Assembly: GCA_002691205.1 (NCBI GenBank)
Contig: NZHD01000008.1
Coordinates: 1-64,000, forward strand
Origin: Deltaproteobacteria bacterium
GTDB taxonomy: Bacteria; Myxococcota_A; UBA9160; UBA4427
DNA length: 64,000 nucleotides
Reading direction: 5' to 3'
Shown here: one piece after another, positions 53,652-59,647 of the stretch
How the letters are laid out: the number at the start of each line of letters is the position of its first letter
How positions within the stretch are numbered: the first letter of the stretch is position 1
Notes under the pieces: model-generated
The model's input: the letters and a program-made list of their open reading frames with translations, nothing else
Databases searched by the model: none
What the model was told of the DNA's origin: nothing
Position numbers and translations under genes: made by a program

Positions 53652-54173
53652 CTAGACTGAATCTCGCCGAGAGTCCTCGGAATCAGAATCCTCGGGCTCT
53701 TCGGCCAGAAACATCTCGATCATCAAAATCCCTGTCCCGACGACGATCAGGCTATCGGCCACATTGAAGGTTGGCCAAACGTATCCCCCGAAAAGGTGAA
53801 CATTCAAGAAGTCAATTACTTCCCCATGAATCAATCGATCAGCTAGGTTTCCAACCGCGCCCGCCAAGATCATACCGAGAGCCATGGGGAGGAGTCGTTC
53901 TTCGGGAGCGTGTCGAAAAAGAAAAAGCAAGAGCAACACGATGGCCAAAAGCGCTGCCCCCACGAAGAGGGTCATCCTGAGTTCAACGGAACCATCGGCG
54001 AGAAAGCTAAAGATGCCTCCCGGATTTCTTACATGCGTAAGTTCGAAGAACCCAGGGATCACCCACTCACGCTCTCCGTAACGCAATCGATCAATGATCC
54101 AGTACTTACTGACTTGGTCTGCAATGAGACCAATGATGAAGGCGGCGCCAAACCACGCGTACTTGGGAGTCAT
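53652..54173 (-). CDS. lspA: Signal peptidase II (prolipoprotein signal peptidase)
   Basis: About 173 aa, four TM segments. The catalytic aspartates are in GAVGNLADRLIHGEVIDF and FNVADSLIVVG, and LIADQVSKYW near the N-terminus is conserved. It cleaves the signal of lipid-modified prolipoproteins in the inner membrane. ATG 54173 (MTPKYAW) gives the normal family length; the frame upstream is open but atypical. At least two candidate lipoprotein substrates (amidohydrolase at 55 kb, phosphodiesterase at 60 kb) are encoded nearby. An acidic C-terminal tail follows the last TM. Confidence 0.93.
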   Translation of the reverse strand: MTPKYAWFGAAFIIGLIADQVSKYWIIDRLRYGEREWVIPGFFELTHVRNPGGIFSFLADGSVELRMTLFVGAALLAIVLLLLFLFRHAPEERLLPMALGMILAGAVGNLADRLIHGEVIDFLNVHLFGGYVWPTFNVADSLIVVGTGILMIEMFLAEEPEDSDSEDSRRDSV

Positions 54174-54262
54174 TGAGCAAACCCTAGCATGCGCCTCTTG
54201 AAGCTGCTCACAACTCAAATCGAAAGCCGTCTGAGAGTGCGAATTGAGAGTGAGGCCGCTGA

Positions 54263-55282
54263 ATGGTAGGCTGGTCATGGAGCGGCCTTCTGCCGTGCGG
54301 AGACGAATTGGGAATAAGGCCGATCGCCGTAGCTCTCGTTTTCTTGATCGGCTTTGCCGTATTCGCTTTCCTATCATGGGATCCGTCTCCAAAGACCAAC
54401 ACGTCTTTCGATCTTAAAAAAAACGGTCTCTGGCTTGGCCATAAATGGTATACCGGCTTAGGAGTCCGCTCAGGAGATCCCGTTACCACCGAGGATTCAA
54501 GAGAACTTATCGAAGACCTTGAGAAACACGGCATCTCTCATGTCTTTATCCATGTCGGCCCAGCCGGCCCCGATGGAACTCTCCCCCACCCTGCCGGCGC
54601 TAGCCTGGAGACGCTGAGAAAAAGTCAACCTCAACTTCAAATGCTGGCTTGGCTAGGGGCCCGCGTCGACAAACTCGACCTGACTGATCCAACTTTTTTG
54701 ATCAACCTCGAAAACTCGATTGAACAGCTTCGCAACGAAGGTTTCGATGGCGTTCATTTTGACTTTGAGCCTATGCGCGACTTTGAAGACGGATATCTCG
54801 AGCTTCTCGAGCGAGTTCGGCAACGGATGGGAAAAAACTTCACCATCAGCCAAGCCACACCCCGTGCGGGTCCATTCGGAATCTCTGTCGGCCCACTCAA
54901 AAGCAGCTTCTGGTCGGAGGAGTATTACCGCGAAACTATGTTACGAAGTGATCAAACCGTGGTCATGGCCTACGACACAAACCTCAGCTTCAAAAAGGGA
55001 TACATCACTTTCGTCCGCCACCAAACTCATCTCATGGCTGATTGGGCCTGCAGCACGCCCGGCCATGAGGCCCTCATTGGCATCCCTGCTTACGAAGATG
55101 TGCCGCTCTACTCCGATCCAGAGATCGAAAATATCCGCACAGCCAGCCTAGGGGTTCGGTCTGCCCTTGAATCAAGAGACGGTGATGCAGGATGCATCCG
55201 AGGGGTCGCCGTATATGCAAACTGGGTTACTGACGACGACGAATGGAAAGACTATCAAAACTACTGGGTAAAACCTGAATGA
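54263..55282 (+). CDS. Membrane-anchored GH18-like glycosidase
   Basis: 339 aa. One N-terminal membrane segment (residues about 20-38) leads to an extracytoplasmic TIM-barrel-like domain. DGVHFDFEP (162-170) matches the GH18 catalytic motif D-x-x-D-x-D-x-E except that the second Asp is His165; the general acid E169 and neighbouring D167 are kept. MAYD near residue 238 fits the barrel strand that usually carries a substrate Asp. The activity could be on chitin-like or peptidoglycan N-acetylglucosamine, inferred only. The start has GTGAGG 7 nt upstream. The stop overlaps the amidohydrolase start (ATGATG), so the two are coupled. Confidence 0.72.
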   Translation: MVGWSWSGLLPCGDELGIRPIAVALVFLIGFAVFAFLSWDPSPKTNTSFDLKKNGLWLGHKWYTGLGVRSGDPVTTEDSRELIEDLEKHGISHVFIHVGPAGPDGTLPHPAGASLETLRKSQPQLQMLAWLGARVDKLDLTDPTFLINLENSIEQLRNEGFDGVHFDFEPMRDFEDGYLELLERVRQRMGKNFTISQATPRAGPFGISVGPLKSSFWSEEYYRETMLRSDQTVVMAYDTNLSFKKGYITFVRHQTHLMADWACSTPGHEALIGIPAYEDVPLYSDPEIENIRTASLGVRSALESRDGDAGCIRGVAVYANWVTDDDEWKDYQNYWVKPE

Positions 55283-56520
55283 TGAACCTACAAATGAAAT
55301 CGAATCTAGGTCGTCGAACTTTCCTAAAACGGCTCGGACTGGTCGCCGCCTCAAGTCTGAGCCTTCCTCTCTCGGGATGCTATGACACAGATCGCTACAC
55401 CGAGGAGGATGCCTTCAAACTCAAAGAGCAGATGCGTGAAGAAAAAGAACGTTCGGGGAAAAGTCGTTTCGGGCCTCATCGCTATCGCGGATATCGCGGC
55501 TTATCCAAGCTCCCCTACTTTGAGATGAACAACCAAGGAGAGCTAAAATGTGTGGTCGAAAATCTCCCGCCAATTATTGACTGCCACACGCACCTTGGAA
55601 TCTCTGCCCTGCTCGCACCTTCTATAGATCTGCTCGCGCGAACTCAACGAGTCCATCATTTCCTCGACTGCGACGCCACCCAACCGGGCTGCGTGCTGGA
55701 TTTAGACGTTTATATCAATGCCAATTTCGATGCAGACCAGCTCAAAGAACTCGAGTGGGAGTCCATCGGCCAATTGACCTGGGGAAGCAAATACGCTGAA
55801 ACGCATACAATTCCGAATCTCCTAAACGAAATGGATGCGAGTTGTATTCAAAAAGCCCTTGTTTTACCCATCGCGCTTGGCTTGCCTTTCGGAGACCACT
55901 TAGCGGACGAGTGGATGGCCGCAATTGAGAGTTCCAATTCAGGAGACCGCCTGCTGCCCGGTGCCTCCATCCATCCTCGCGACACCGACGCGCTGCTTGA
56001 GTTGAGAAGGCAAGCTTCACTTGGCGCCCGCGCTGTAAAGCTACATCCCGCCGTCCAACGCTTTTTCCCAGATGATCCCGAGATGAATCTCATCTACCAG
56101 GAATGCGGACGCCTCGGACTCCCCGTATTTTTCCATGGAGGTCGTGCAGGAATTGAACCGGGCTATACGCACCGCTTCACGCTCATCCGCAACTACGAAG
56201 CCGCTGTGGCCGAACATCCCGATGTCAACTTCATCCTGGGACATGCAGGAGCCAGAGACGTAGCCGATGCGATTCCCTTTGCTCTTCGAAACCCGAACGT
56301 CTTTCTTGATATCCACGGTCAAGGCATTCGACAGATTGACGAACTCATCGAGACTCTGGGTGCCGATCGCTTGCTCTTCGGTTCCGATTGGCCCTTCTAC
56401 CATGAAGCTGCCACCCTGGCTAAAATTTTAATCGTCACCGAGGGTCAGCCCGAAAAGCGCGATGCGATTCTCTCAGGAACAGCCCAGAGATTGCTCAGGC
56501 CTCCTCAAAATAGCGGCTGA
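55279..56520 (+). CDS. Tat-exported lipoprotein, amidohydrolase-2 family
   Basis: 413 aa. A twin-arginine signal (RRTFLKR, residues 12-18) with a lipobox LSGC (Cys34) marks a folded lipoprotein exported by Tat. A charged linker (40-95) precedes an amidohydrolase TIM barrel: IIDCHTHLG (His103, His105), VKLHPA, FILGHAGARD and LLFGSDWPF supply the metal and catalytic residues seen in TatD/ACMSD-like enzymes. It hydrolyses or decarboxylates an unknown small substrate outside the cytoplasm. Coupled to the GH18-like gene by a four-base overlap. Amidohydrolases of this kind are normally cytoplasmic, so export is unusual. Confidence 0.85.
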   Translation: MMNLQMKSNLGRRTFLKRLGLVAASSLSLPLSGCYDTDRYTEEDAFKLKEQMREEKERSGKSRFGPHRYRGYRGLSKLPYFEMNNQGELKCVVENLPPIIDCHTHLGISALLAPSIDLLARTQRVHHFLDCDATQPGCVLDLDVYINANFDADQLKELEWESIGQLTWGSKYAETHTIPNLLNEMDASCIQKALVLPIALGLPFGDHLADEWMAAIESSNSGDRLLPGASIHPRDTDALLELRRQASLGARAVKLHPAVQRFFPDDPEMNLIYQECGRLGLPVFFHGGRAGIEPGYTHRFTLIRNYEAAVAEHPDVNFILGHAGARDVADAIPFALRNPNVFLDIHGQGIRQIDELIETLGADRLLFGSDWPFYHEAATLAKILIVTEGQPEKRDAILSGTAQRLLRPPQNSG

Positions 56521-56527
56521 AAAAAAG

Positions 56528-57583
56528 TCACCCCCCTCGACCTCCATGAGAAAAGCCTAACTCCAGGATCGCGTCCGCAGCGACCCACCGGAAAACATCT
56601 TCCGAGCAAATCTGATCTTCACGCCAGCAAACTTCCGCCAAACGAATGACATGCTCCTGCGCCGAACAAGCTGCGCGGTAGCGCATCTCATCCCAGGACT
56701 CCGAGAGCTTCAGAAGATCTGCGGATGGACGAAATGCTTGACTGGACTCACCATACGTGCAGTGAACCGCAAGCACCCCTTGCAATGCATATCCTAACCC
56801 CCGCTCCACCGTCTCCTCATTCAGGTACGGAAGGAAAGAACGTAGGGCCGATGCTCCGGTGAGACCGAACAAATAAGGGAGGCGATGCGCCGGATGTTTG
56901 AGATAAAGATGGGCGGCTTCCGAACAAAGCCGACTGACGAAAACAGAAGGCTCGAACTCCCGCAGGTCGGCACGTTCAATTGTGGGCACGAAAAGGGTGT
57001 GATTCTCTAGTGCATTCACAGCCTGGGAGACCAGCACCGGATGAGGCTCCGAAAGAGAAGCCGGCTGTAAATTCTTAAAAATCTGTTCAAGTCCGTAGCC
57101 CGGCTCGCTTTCACAACCTGGAACCCCAGGGAGTTCCTGATAGCGAGAAGCCCAGTAGGCAAGGCCGCGGACCATCTCTTCTCGCCGATGGGCTGATTCT
57201 AGGCCTTCAAGAGCCCGAATAGCGTGAGCTAAACGAACTGGACCATGAAAGGCCGCTGCAAAATAACCAGCCAAAAAAACAGGCAGCTTCTCTCTCAACA
57301 ACTCCCATTCGGCCCCCGCTTCGTGCTCAGGGGCGAACGTGACGACCCAATCCTCAGGAAGCCCGTTCCCCAGTGCCTCCTTTTGCCCAGCCTCCGGTAT
57401 GGGCTGGCCCACCTCCAGGAACTGCAATCGGGGCAGGTAGACGTCTAGGAAGGCCTCTGTGAGGACGTCGTGCCCCAGCGCGTGTAGCGCCTCAGACACC
57501 ATAGGCCCGTTATTGCAAAGACCCGCCCCATATTCAAAGGAGCACTCACGCATTCGAGCTAATCCATGATCAAGTTCGTTCAA
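56528..57583 (-). CDS. Questin-oxidase-like protein (DUF4243)
   Basis: 351 aa all-alpha protein. NNGPMVSEALHALGHDV near residues 24-40, ending with a repeated helical C-terminal half (HCTYG, HVIRLAEVCWRE), resembles the questin oxidase/DUF4243 family. The fungal founding member performs oxidative ring opening of an anthraquinone; bacterial members have no known role. No cofactor motif is seen. Start is TTG 57583 with GGAG 6 nt upstream; the Met at 57553 is an alternative. Convergent with the amidohydrolase (8 bases) and divergent from mrp. Confidence 0.72.
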   Translation of the reverse strand: MNELDHGLARMRECSFEYGAGLCNNGPMVSEALHALGHDVLTEAFLDVYLPRLQFLEVGQPIPEAGQKEALGNGLPEDWVVTFAPEHEAGAEWELLREKLPVFLAGYFAAAFHGPVRLAHAIRALEGLESAHRREEMVRGLAYWASRYQELPGVPGCESEPGYGLEQIFKNLQPASLSEPHPVLVSQAVNALENHTLFVPTIERADLREFEPSVFVSRLCSEAAHLYLKHPAHRLPYLFGLTGASALRSFLPYLNEETVERGLGYALQGVLAVHCTYGESSQAFRPSADLLKLSESWDEMRYRAACSAQEHVIRLAEVCWREDQICSEDVFRWVAADAILELGFSHGGRGG

Positions 57584-58900: not shown

Positions 58901-59647
58901 TTACTCGGATTGATGCAGCAGGTAGTAAAATAAGGGCGGAGCAGGCTCCACAGGAGACGATTTAAGTGCTTCAGCAAAGTCCGCGTAGCTGTCAAACCGC
59001 TTTAAATCCAAGTTCCCCGGCGGCTCAAAGAACTCTTCTTCGACGGACAGATCCGGAATCCATTGAACCCAGTCCAATTCGGACTTTCGGTTTGTGCCGC
59101 GACTGTAAGTCTCCAACCTAAGCGGGAATTTGAGAGAATTTTGAGTCACCCATAAGGTGCGCTTTCCCTGATTGTCCGTCACGCGGTACACCTCAGCGCG
59201 AACCCCATTCAGACTCTCCTCACGGATTTTCTCACCGCCAGCGGCCCACAATTCGTAAAGATCCAAAGCAAAAGGTCGAATGCGTTCTTTATCCTTTGCT
59301 ACGGAAGAAGAGGAACGCTTGATCCGGTAGCCCTTCCGAGTGAGAGCGTCGTAGGTGTAGTAGTACTTTTTGTCCACCAGTGTGACGATCGGGTGCCCCG
59401 CCACCACCGTCTCCGATCGAAAAAGAGACCCGAGAGACCAATACTGCGCCATGACCCGATCGAAATCAGAATGTCCAAAAGTCATGGCGTAGTACGCGTT
59501 TGGAGTGTTAGCCGTAGGCTGGGTGGCCTTCTCTTGGGCCACTGCGCCAAAGGCCGCGAAGATGAAACTCACTGCTCCCACCAAGAGAAAAAGCGCCCTG
59601 GATGTAGCGACTCTACGCTGATTCAGTAAAAGAGTTTTTTGAAACAT
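58901..59647 (-). CDS. LolA-like periplasmic protein
   Basis: 248 aa. A signal peptide (LFLLVGAVSFIFAAFGAVA, cleavage near AQE) is followed by a beta-rich domain of LolA/LolB type: long strands such as RAEVYRVTDNQGKRTLWVTQ and LRLETYSRG that would form the half-barrel holding a lipid. Similar proteins are annotated as outer-membrane lipoprotein-sorting proteins and often travel with MMPL exporters; here the exporter is 25 kb away. It starts 14 bases after the phosphodiesterase gene, so both are one unit. Family assignment is moderate. Confidence 0.65.
   Translation of the reverse strand: MFQKTLLLNQRRVATSRALFLLVGAVSFIFAAFGAVAQEKATQPTANTPNAYYAMTFGHSDFDRVMAQYWSLGSLFRSETVVAGHPIVTLVDKKYYYTYDALTRKGYRIKRSSSSVAKDKERIRPFALDLYELWAAGGEKIREESLNGVRAEVYRVTDNQGKRTLWVTQNSLKFPLRLETYSRGTNRKSELDWVQWIPDLSVEEEFFEPPGNLDLKRFDSYADFAEALKSSPVEPAPPLFYYLLHQSE

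Follow-up and report, generated by a model that had tools for sequence, protein, structure and literature searches.

In the 64,000-nucleotide stretch analysed here (the window; positions 1 to 64,000 of contig NZHD01000008.1, assembly GCA_002691205.1, from a Deltaproteobacteria bacterium of the Myxococcota_A), two neighbouring open reading frames (ORFs), ORF A and ORF B, encode a membrane-anchored protein with a glycoside hydrolase family 18 (GH18) fold and an Amidohydro_2 protein with a leader for lipidation and for the twin-arginine translocation (Tat) pathway. With moderate confidence, we read A and B as two separately evolving periplasmic hydrolases, which are neighbours and probably co-transcribed in one Myxococcota lineage. 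Their pairing is probably a local gene arrangement and not a new pathway.

Gene content and gene arrangement

Across genomes, A and B are found together as often as expected by chance. Among the 90 genomes of the class, A (E <= 1e-90; 19 hits, from which the weak G038 and G046 were dropped) exists in 17, B (E <= 1e-60) in 47, and both in 9, with 8.9 expected (odds ratio 1.04, Fisher p 1.0). B is present without A in 38 of the 47 genomes, and A without B in 8 of the 17 (G005, G011, G019, G020, and G061-G064). In the phylum sample of 377 genomes, which contains the class and is not independent of it, A (profile, E <= 1e-10) is found in 34, B (E <= 1e-40) in 98, and both in 11, with 8.8 expected (p 0.41).

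The pair singled out by the first-pass annotation is conserved beyond this genome, with A and B side by side in 8 of the 30 genomes of the window's family, belonging to three genera (G000, G018, G013-G017, and G009). In the other genomes with both genes (G070, which is the ninth of the class, G288, and G351), A and B are situated on separate contigs. All eight adjacent pairs are located within one syntenic block, and no adjacent pair was found in a different context. The order in the block is two-component pair, ThiE-like gene, nucleoside transporter, lspA, A, B, unknown gene, and Mrp-like ATPase, with the two-component, ThiE, and Mrp names assigned tentatively from sequence. The divergent neighbour of A is lspA (53652-54392, minus strand). 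The unknown gene, convergent with B, serves as a synteny control, and its homologue comes after A in the A-only genome G005. Furthermore, in G005, G019, and G020, A is retained within the same block and B is missing. Because the whole block is syntenic and the other neighbour of B is equally kept (7/8), the adjacency of A and B carries little functional information. Gene calling was crude, and in some rows A or B was hidden under shadow ORFs and was placed by homology; the contig of G014 spans only 5 kb, leaving the nearest neighbours alone visible.

For an ATG close to the leader of B, the two genes overlap in seven of the eight paired genomes by 4, 8, or 17 nucleotides (nt): 4 nt in G013, G014, and G015, 8 nt in G016 and G017, and 17 nt in G018. 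In G009, the B starts nearest the leader fall downstream of the A stop. The four-base overlap noted in the first-pass annotation exists in the window at ATGA, where the A stop is shared with the first possible start of B, and it depends on that start. Since several orthologues begin at window residue 6, B could start instead at ATG 55294, which would leave A and B 11 nt apart and remove the overlap.

Outside the block, no recurring theme surrounds either gene, and a pathway drawn from shared neighbours of A or B was rejected on that ground. Around B, no flanking gene is common to more than a few related genomes, and the families found there (xylose-isomerase-like, beta-lactamase-like, cation efflux, TetR, DUF455, Metal_hydrol, and tRNA methyltransferase) have no common theme; of the ten proteins scanned, eight came from the surroundings of B, and one of these eight had no match. 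Two recurrent clusters at the place of B, c14 and c3, were discarded as neighbours, since they were taken for shadow ORFs on the strand opposite B, in genomes rich in G+C. Around A in other lineages, M16 peptidases, citrate synthase, patatin, a WYL regulator, NUDIX, EF-P, and others are found, likewise without a theme.

Phylogeny of B and history of the pairing

The B alignment and tree comprise 58 rows. Besides the window, these are the 46 remaining sequences of the 47 hits within the class, G039, and a set of 10 drawn from the 50 hits outside it. In this tree, 46 sequences form a clade with support 100/100, and the twin Arg, hydrophobic stretch, and Cys are present in 45 of them, the remaining member (G028) being cut off by the contig end. 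Of the 45 clade rows other than the window, 14 escaped the leader pattern; 13 of these were scored positive by eye, and the fourteenth is G028. In G001, G083, G087, and G088, the RR is present and the F of RRxF is absent. The other 12 of the 58 homologues have no Tat-lipobox leader; a pattern match in G322 lies 5' of the probable start and is read as spurious. On these leaders, B is a member of a widespread clade of predicted Tat lipoproteins, sister to leaderless relatives. Such leaderless relatives (L152-L160 and L163-L165, 36-41% identity) are presumably cytoplasmic, which would place one enzyme type in two compartments.

Within the exported clade, the B of G060 is 72% identical to that of the window and falls inside the paired B clade (support 100/99). 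The genome of G060, which is 89% complete, gives no A hit, so a B of the paired lineage can be found where A is not detected. The approximately unbiased (AU) test rejects a clade of the eight paired B genes without G060 (p-AU 4.8e-40) but does not reject the same clade with G060 included (p-AU 0.22). These p-values are weakened by the choice of groups, which followed gene content, with G060 brought in once the tree had been seen. G060 represents another family of the order; its B (locus L110) has different surroundings, with A missing, and was possibly acquired by horizontal transfer.

The adjacency may have arisen more than once, if B genes were replaced and moved within a block that itself stayed fixed. 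In the best tree, the B of G009 groups with those of unpaired G048 and G066, apart from the other seven paired B genes, and G009 is the genome in which the starts nearest the leader give no overlap with A. Repeated pairing of this kind is nevertheless rather unlikely, as the single clade of all paired B genes and G060 is not rejected.

Predicted fold and catalytic-site motif of A

A matches Pfam Glyco_hydro_18 (PF00704) with E 9.6e-8 and 32.5 bits, compared with a cut-off of 29.6. No LysM or other second domain was found in Pfam up to E 1, and NCBIfam gave no match. In the AlphaFold model, obtained with 14 aligned sequences, helix 15-38 is followed by an eight-stranded barrel (mean predicted local distance difference test score (pLDDT) 83.3; predicted template modelling score (pTM) 0.81). 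The helix and the domain match agree with the membrane-anchored GH18-like protein of the first-pass annotation, and the expected barrel is obtained in the model. The aligned homologues, the actinobacterial ones included, also have a hydrophobic stretch at the anchor position. GH18 enzymes lead both structural match lists. The first Foldseek match is SleL 4s3k (E 1.3e-9), and a second aligner places SleL 4s3j at Z 19.6 (root-mean-square deviation 3.8, 249 aligned), tied within 1 with a Pf-5 chitinase (Z 19.1) and a Bacteroides chitinase (Z 19.0). The sequence profile ranks SleL 4s3k first among solved structures (E 1.4e-7), followed by 4s3j and ChiB near 1e-5.

The catalytic motif of GH18 is DxxDxDxE, with Glu as the catalytic residue. 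In A, the catalytic Glu is present and the set of three Asp is incomplete, the second being replaced by His165. Conservation was assessed in 32 homologous sequences of Myxococcota and Actinobacteria, among them that of the window. E169, which follows strand beta-4, is invariant (32/32). At position 165, 29 sequences have His and 3 have Gln; at position 167, 23 have Asp and 9 have Asn; the first Asp of the motif is kept in 22. In the beta-6 motif, Y237 is found in all 32 homologues, M235 in 31, and D238 in 30; G163, S196, W217, W130, E289, and W328 are also unchanging. The His that the first-pass annotation pointed out is indeed there, although it is no oddity: with 29 of 32 members carrying it, the alignment makes His165 a trait of the A family and not a local loss, and both solved SleL sequences (4s3k and 4s3j) share the string HFDFE with A, His included. 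The missing second Asp alone therefore does not exclude GH18, and A is filed as a GH18-fold variant. The A family is an uncharacterised variant of GH18 with the signature GxHx[DN]xEP.

In the proposed mechanism, A would be held in the inner membrane by its uncleaved N-terminal helix, and in the periplasm the barrel would cut a glycan of beta-linked N-acetylhexosamine, most likely peptidoglycan. E169 would serve as the acid and D167 (Asn in relatives) as the partner of the substrate acetamido group, with the involvement of Y237.

The same motif departures, namely His at the second position, Asn at the third in 9/32, and the first Asp in only 22/32, together with a Pfam score barely above the cut-off and the chitinase-like proteins among the structural matches, would suit a GH18-like protein that is anchored in the inner membrane and, like the chitinase-like lectins, binds glycan or acts as a scaffold without catalysis. 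We consider this unlikely. E169 and Y237 do not vary, and the two SleL sequences with the same His are named cortex-lytic enzymes. In addition, active GH85 enzymes use an Asn-x-Glu pair, so that Asn at position 167 need not mean an inactive A. The natural Asp-to-Asn shift beside an invariant Glu would make the acetamido-assisted mechanism comparable within one family.

Similarly unlikely, to about the same degree, is that A acts not on peptidoglycan but on chitin or a different polymer of N-acetylglucosamine, imported or exported. Chitinases tie with SleL in structural score, ChiB sequences match the A profile at ~1e-5, and the genome encodes another, strong GH18 protein (E 4.5e-79). Anchoring in the inner membrane, however, would keep A from extracellular chitin, SleL is the best sequence-profile match, and the loci scanned showed no recognisable chitin-use gene next to A. 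The second GH18 protein is situated in G000 on contig C8 (121451-122533, locus L172), within a 933-residue open frame; by its domain match, chitin-type activity in this genome may be independent of A.

Among known systems, the spore cortex-lytic enzymes SleL/YaaH (4s3j and 4s3k) share the GH18 barrel and the His of HFDFE with A, and they are its best sequence-profile match and its top structural match, the latter tied with two chitinases. SleL/YaaH carry LysM cell-wall-binding domains and act on the spore cortex. In contrast, A has an N-terminal membrane anchor, no extra domain detected, and 15-17% identity over the barrel; it occurs in Myxococcota and Actinobacteria, no spore role is proposed for it, and it is not filed as SleL. 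These statements on SleL rest on Protein Data Bank titles and alignments. With the GH18 chitinases (Serratia ChiB and Pf-5 class V chitinase 4q6t), A shares the fold, the Glu position, and MxYD at beta-6, and differs in its membrane anchor, in the His for the second Asp, and in the third position, which is Asn in nine homologues. A similar barrel (Z 18.4) is also found in Cwp19, the GHL10 lytic transglycosylase on the cell surface of Clostridioides difficile (5oq2 and 5oq3). Cwp19 belongs to a different family, to whose Pfam entry A has no match up to E 1. According to the available part of its description, Cwp19 has a peptidoglycan-cutting barrel (Pfam02638) and cell-wall-binding repeats, so a barrel of the A-like kind can cut peptidoglycan (PMC6016235).

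More distant homologues of A exist beyond the class. Six of these (L166-L171) all carry Asn two residues before the catalytic Glu, and three of the six carry Gln for His. In Catenulispora, Actinomadura, Nocardia, and Streptomyces (L015-L021), homologues with ~30% identity keep HxDxEP and a hydrophobic N-terminus. The only actinobacterial homologue scanned (L016) has no Pfam GH18 match at 1e-3; hence, the family may be under-annotated in databases. A Verrucomicrobia locus (L022, 24% identity, E 4e-10) was not used as a family member, and a search of viral contigs for A relatives found none.

Predicted metal site and export of B

B matches Pfam Amidohydro_2 (PF04909) with E 7e-32 and 111.8 bits, compared with a cut-off of 26.4; matches to NCBIfam are sub-threshold only, and its nearest solved relative by profile is BB4693 (3irs, E 2.5e-14). 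We take H103, H105, H286, H322, and D370 to be the HxH, H, H, and D metal residues of the Amidohydro_2 family; each of them is invariant among the homologues (58/58), and so are K254 and H256. The domain and the metal residues are common to BB4693 and to the gamma-resorcylate and ACMS decarboxylases of PF04909; unlike these members, B is predicted from its leader to be Tat-exported and lipidated. In the proposed mechanism, B would be folded in the cytoplasm, exported by Tat, and lipid-anchored, and its metal site would hydrolyse or decarboxylate a small molecule independently of A. The window genome encodes TatC.

The twin-arginine signal (RR 12-13) and lipobox (Cys34) assigned to this amidohydrolase in the first-pass annotation are both present, and the export and anchor signals on A and B suggest that both products face the periplasm. 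The predicted export, which that annotation considered unusual for an amidohydrolase-2 protein, is ordinary within the B clade, where the Tat-lipoprotein leader is kept apart from the truncated row. A precedent is the amidohydrolase_3 exoprotein PA2699 of Pseudomonas aeruginosa, whose export is Tat-dependent (PMC4899797). PA2699 and B share the amidohydrolase superfamily and the Tat route; the subfamily of PA2699 differs, and the available part of that source does not mention a lipobox. The available part of another paper found in the literature on exported amidohydrolases (PMC4959651) holds nothing relevant. A literature search by title and abstract start, with most subscription journals outside its scope, gave no paper on the A-B gene pair, and a PADLOC search for defence systems gave no match for A or B.

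Relationship between the two predicted activities

Several observations weigh against separate evolution of A and B as periplasmic hydrolases, with A acting on peptidoglycan. The evidence does not directly single out peptidoglycan as the substrate: in the structural comparison, chitinases reach scores equal to that of SleL, and cell-wall genes were not recognised beside A in the loci scanned. With Asn for Asp at position 167 in part of the family, the activity of A is not certain. The model of B is poor (mean pLDDT 49.5), and its metal pocket is deduced from sequence alone. The overlap kept in seven of eight paired genomes could reflect selection for joint translation. Furthermore, many genomes are drafts less than 90% complete, in which some absences may be assembly gaps, and the genome counts ignore kinship; through both, the co-occurrence counts may err in either direction.

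The first-pass annotation proposed a two-step extracytoplasmic pathway, in which the glycosidase hands a small product to the amidohydrolase. Spelled out, A would release a small amide- or lactone-bearing sugar product at the membrane and the lipid-anchored B would hydrolyse it nearby, with the overlap matching the amounts of the two proteins. This lead was plausible from overlapping genes in a conserved block: the overlap and the adjacency recur across three genera, both proteins are predicted to be exported and anchored, B has all the expected catalytic residues, and A has the Glu and the Tyr. It is unsupported by the 90 genomes, which show no association of A with B, and we regard it as improbable. 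Each gene often occurs alone, one B of the paired clade (G060) among them, and synteny extends over the whole block, so that the adjacency is not special within it. Similarly improbable is a broader version, in which a membrane-anchored GH18-type family of Myxococcota and Actinobacteria, with the GxHx[DN]xEP signature, cuts periplasmic glycan with Asp or Asn assistance and is joined in one lineage with an exported amidohydrolase acting on the released product. On the reading of two separately evolving hydrolases, what is new is modest: a GH18-type family that is membrane-anchored and consistently altered in its motif, and, within Amidohydro_2, a branch of predicted Tat lipoproteins.

Gene starts and mapped features

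As annotated from ATG 54263, ORF A encodes 339 residues. Its start is probably TTG 54308, judged from a GGAG located 5 nt ahead and from the start codons of relatives, and the protein would then have 324 residues. In G018, G015, and G017, a TTG is located at or near the matching position, and in G018 and G015 no ATG, GTG, or TTG was found in frame 5' of the aligned A region. ORF B encodes 413 residues from 55279. The positions of these features are collected in Table 1.

Table 1. Features of the A-B locus in the window, with the basis of each assignment
Feature	Position	Strand	Basis
ORF A, N-terminally membrane-anchored GH18-fold protein	54263..55282	+	PF00704 match, AlphaFold model, structure matches
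Putative start region of ORF A: ribosome site GGAG (54299-54302), start codon TTG (54308-54310)	54299..54310	+	Sequence; relatives
Transmembrane anchor of A, residues 15-38	54305..54376	+	Helix in model; hydrophobic stretch in homologues
Catalytic-site motif D162-G-V-H165-F-D167-F-E169-P170 at strand beta-4 of A	54746..54772	+	Alignment of 32 homologues
M235-A-Y237-D238, GH18 MxYD position at strand beta-6 of A	54965..54976	+	Alignment; strand 231-235 in model
ATGA, A stop shared with first possible B start	55279..55282	+	Overlap recurs in paired genomes
ORF B, predicted Tat-exported lipoprotein, Amidohydro_2 metal-dependent hydrolase	55279..56520	+	PF04909; 3irs profile match
Leader of B: R12-R13 (55312-55317), hydrophobic stretch, lipobox Cys34 (55378-55380)	55279..55380	+	Leaders of the clade
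H103-T-H105, metal motif of B	55585..55593	+	Both His in 58/58 homologues
H286, expected metal ligand of B	56134..56136	+	58/58 homologues
H322, expected active-site histidine of B	56242..56244	+	58/58 homologues
D370 of the GSDWP motif in B, expected to bind metal and act as general base	56386..56388	+	58/58 homologues
Convergent neighbour of B, 351 residues, no Pfam match; synteny control	56528..57583	-	Follows B in 7/8 paired genomes

Further downstream, positions 58901-59647 on the minus strand encode another conserved protein, whose N-terminus resembles a signal peptide and which has no match in Pfam at 1e-3; it is found at this place in most of the syntenic blocks.

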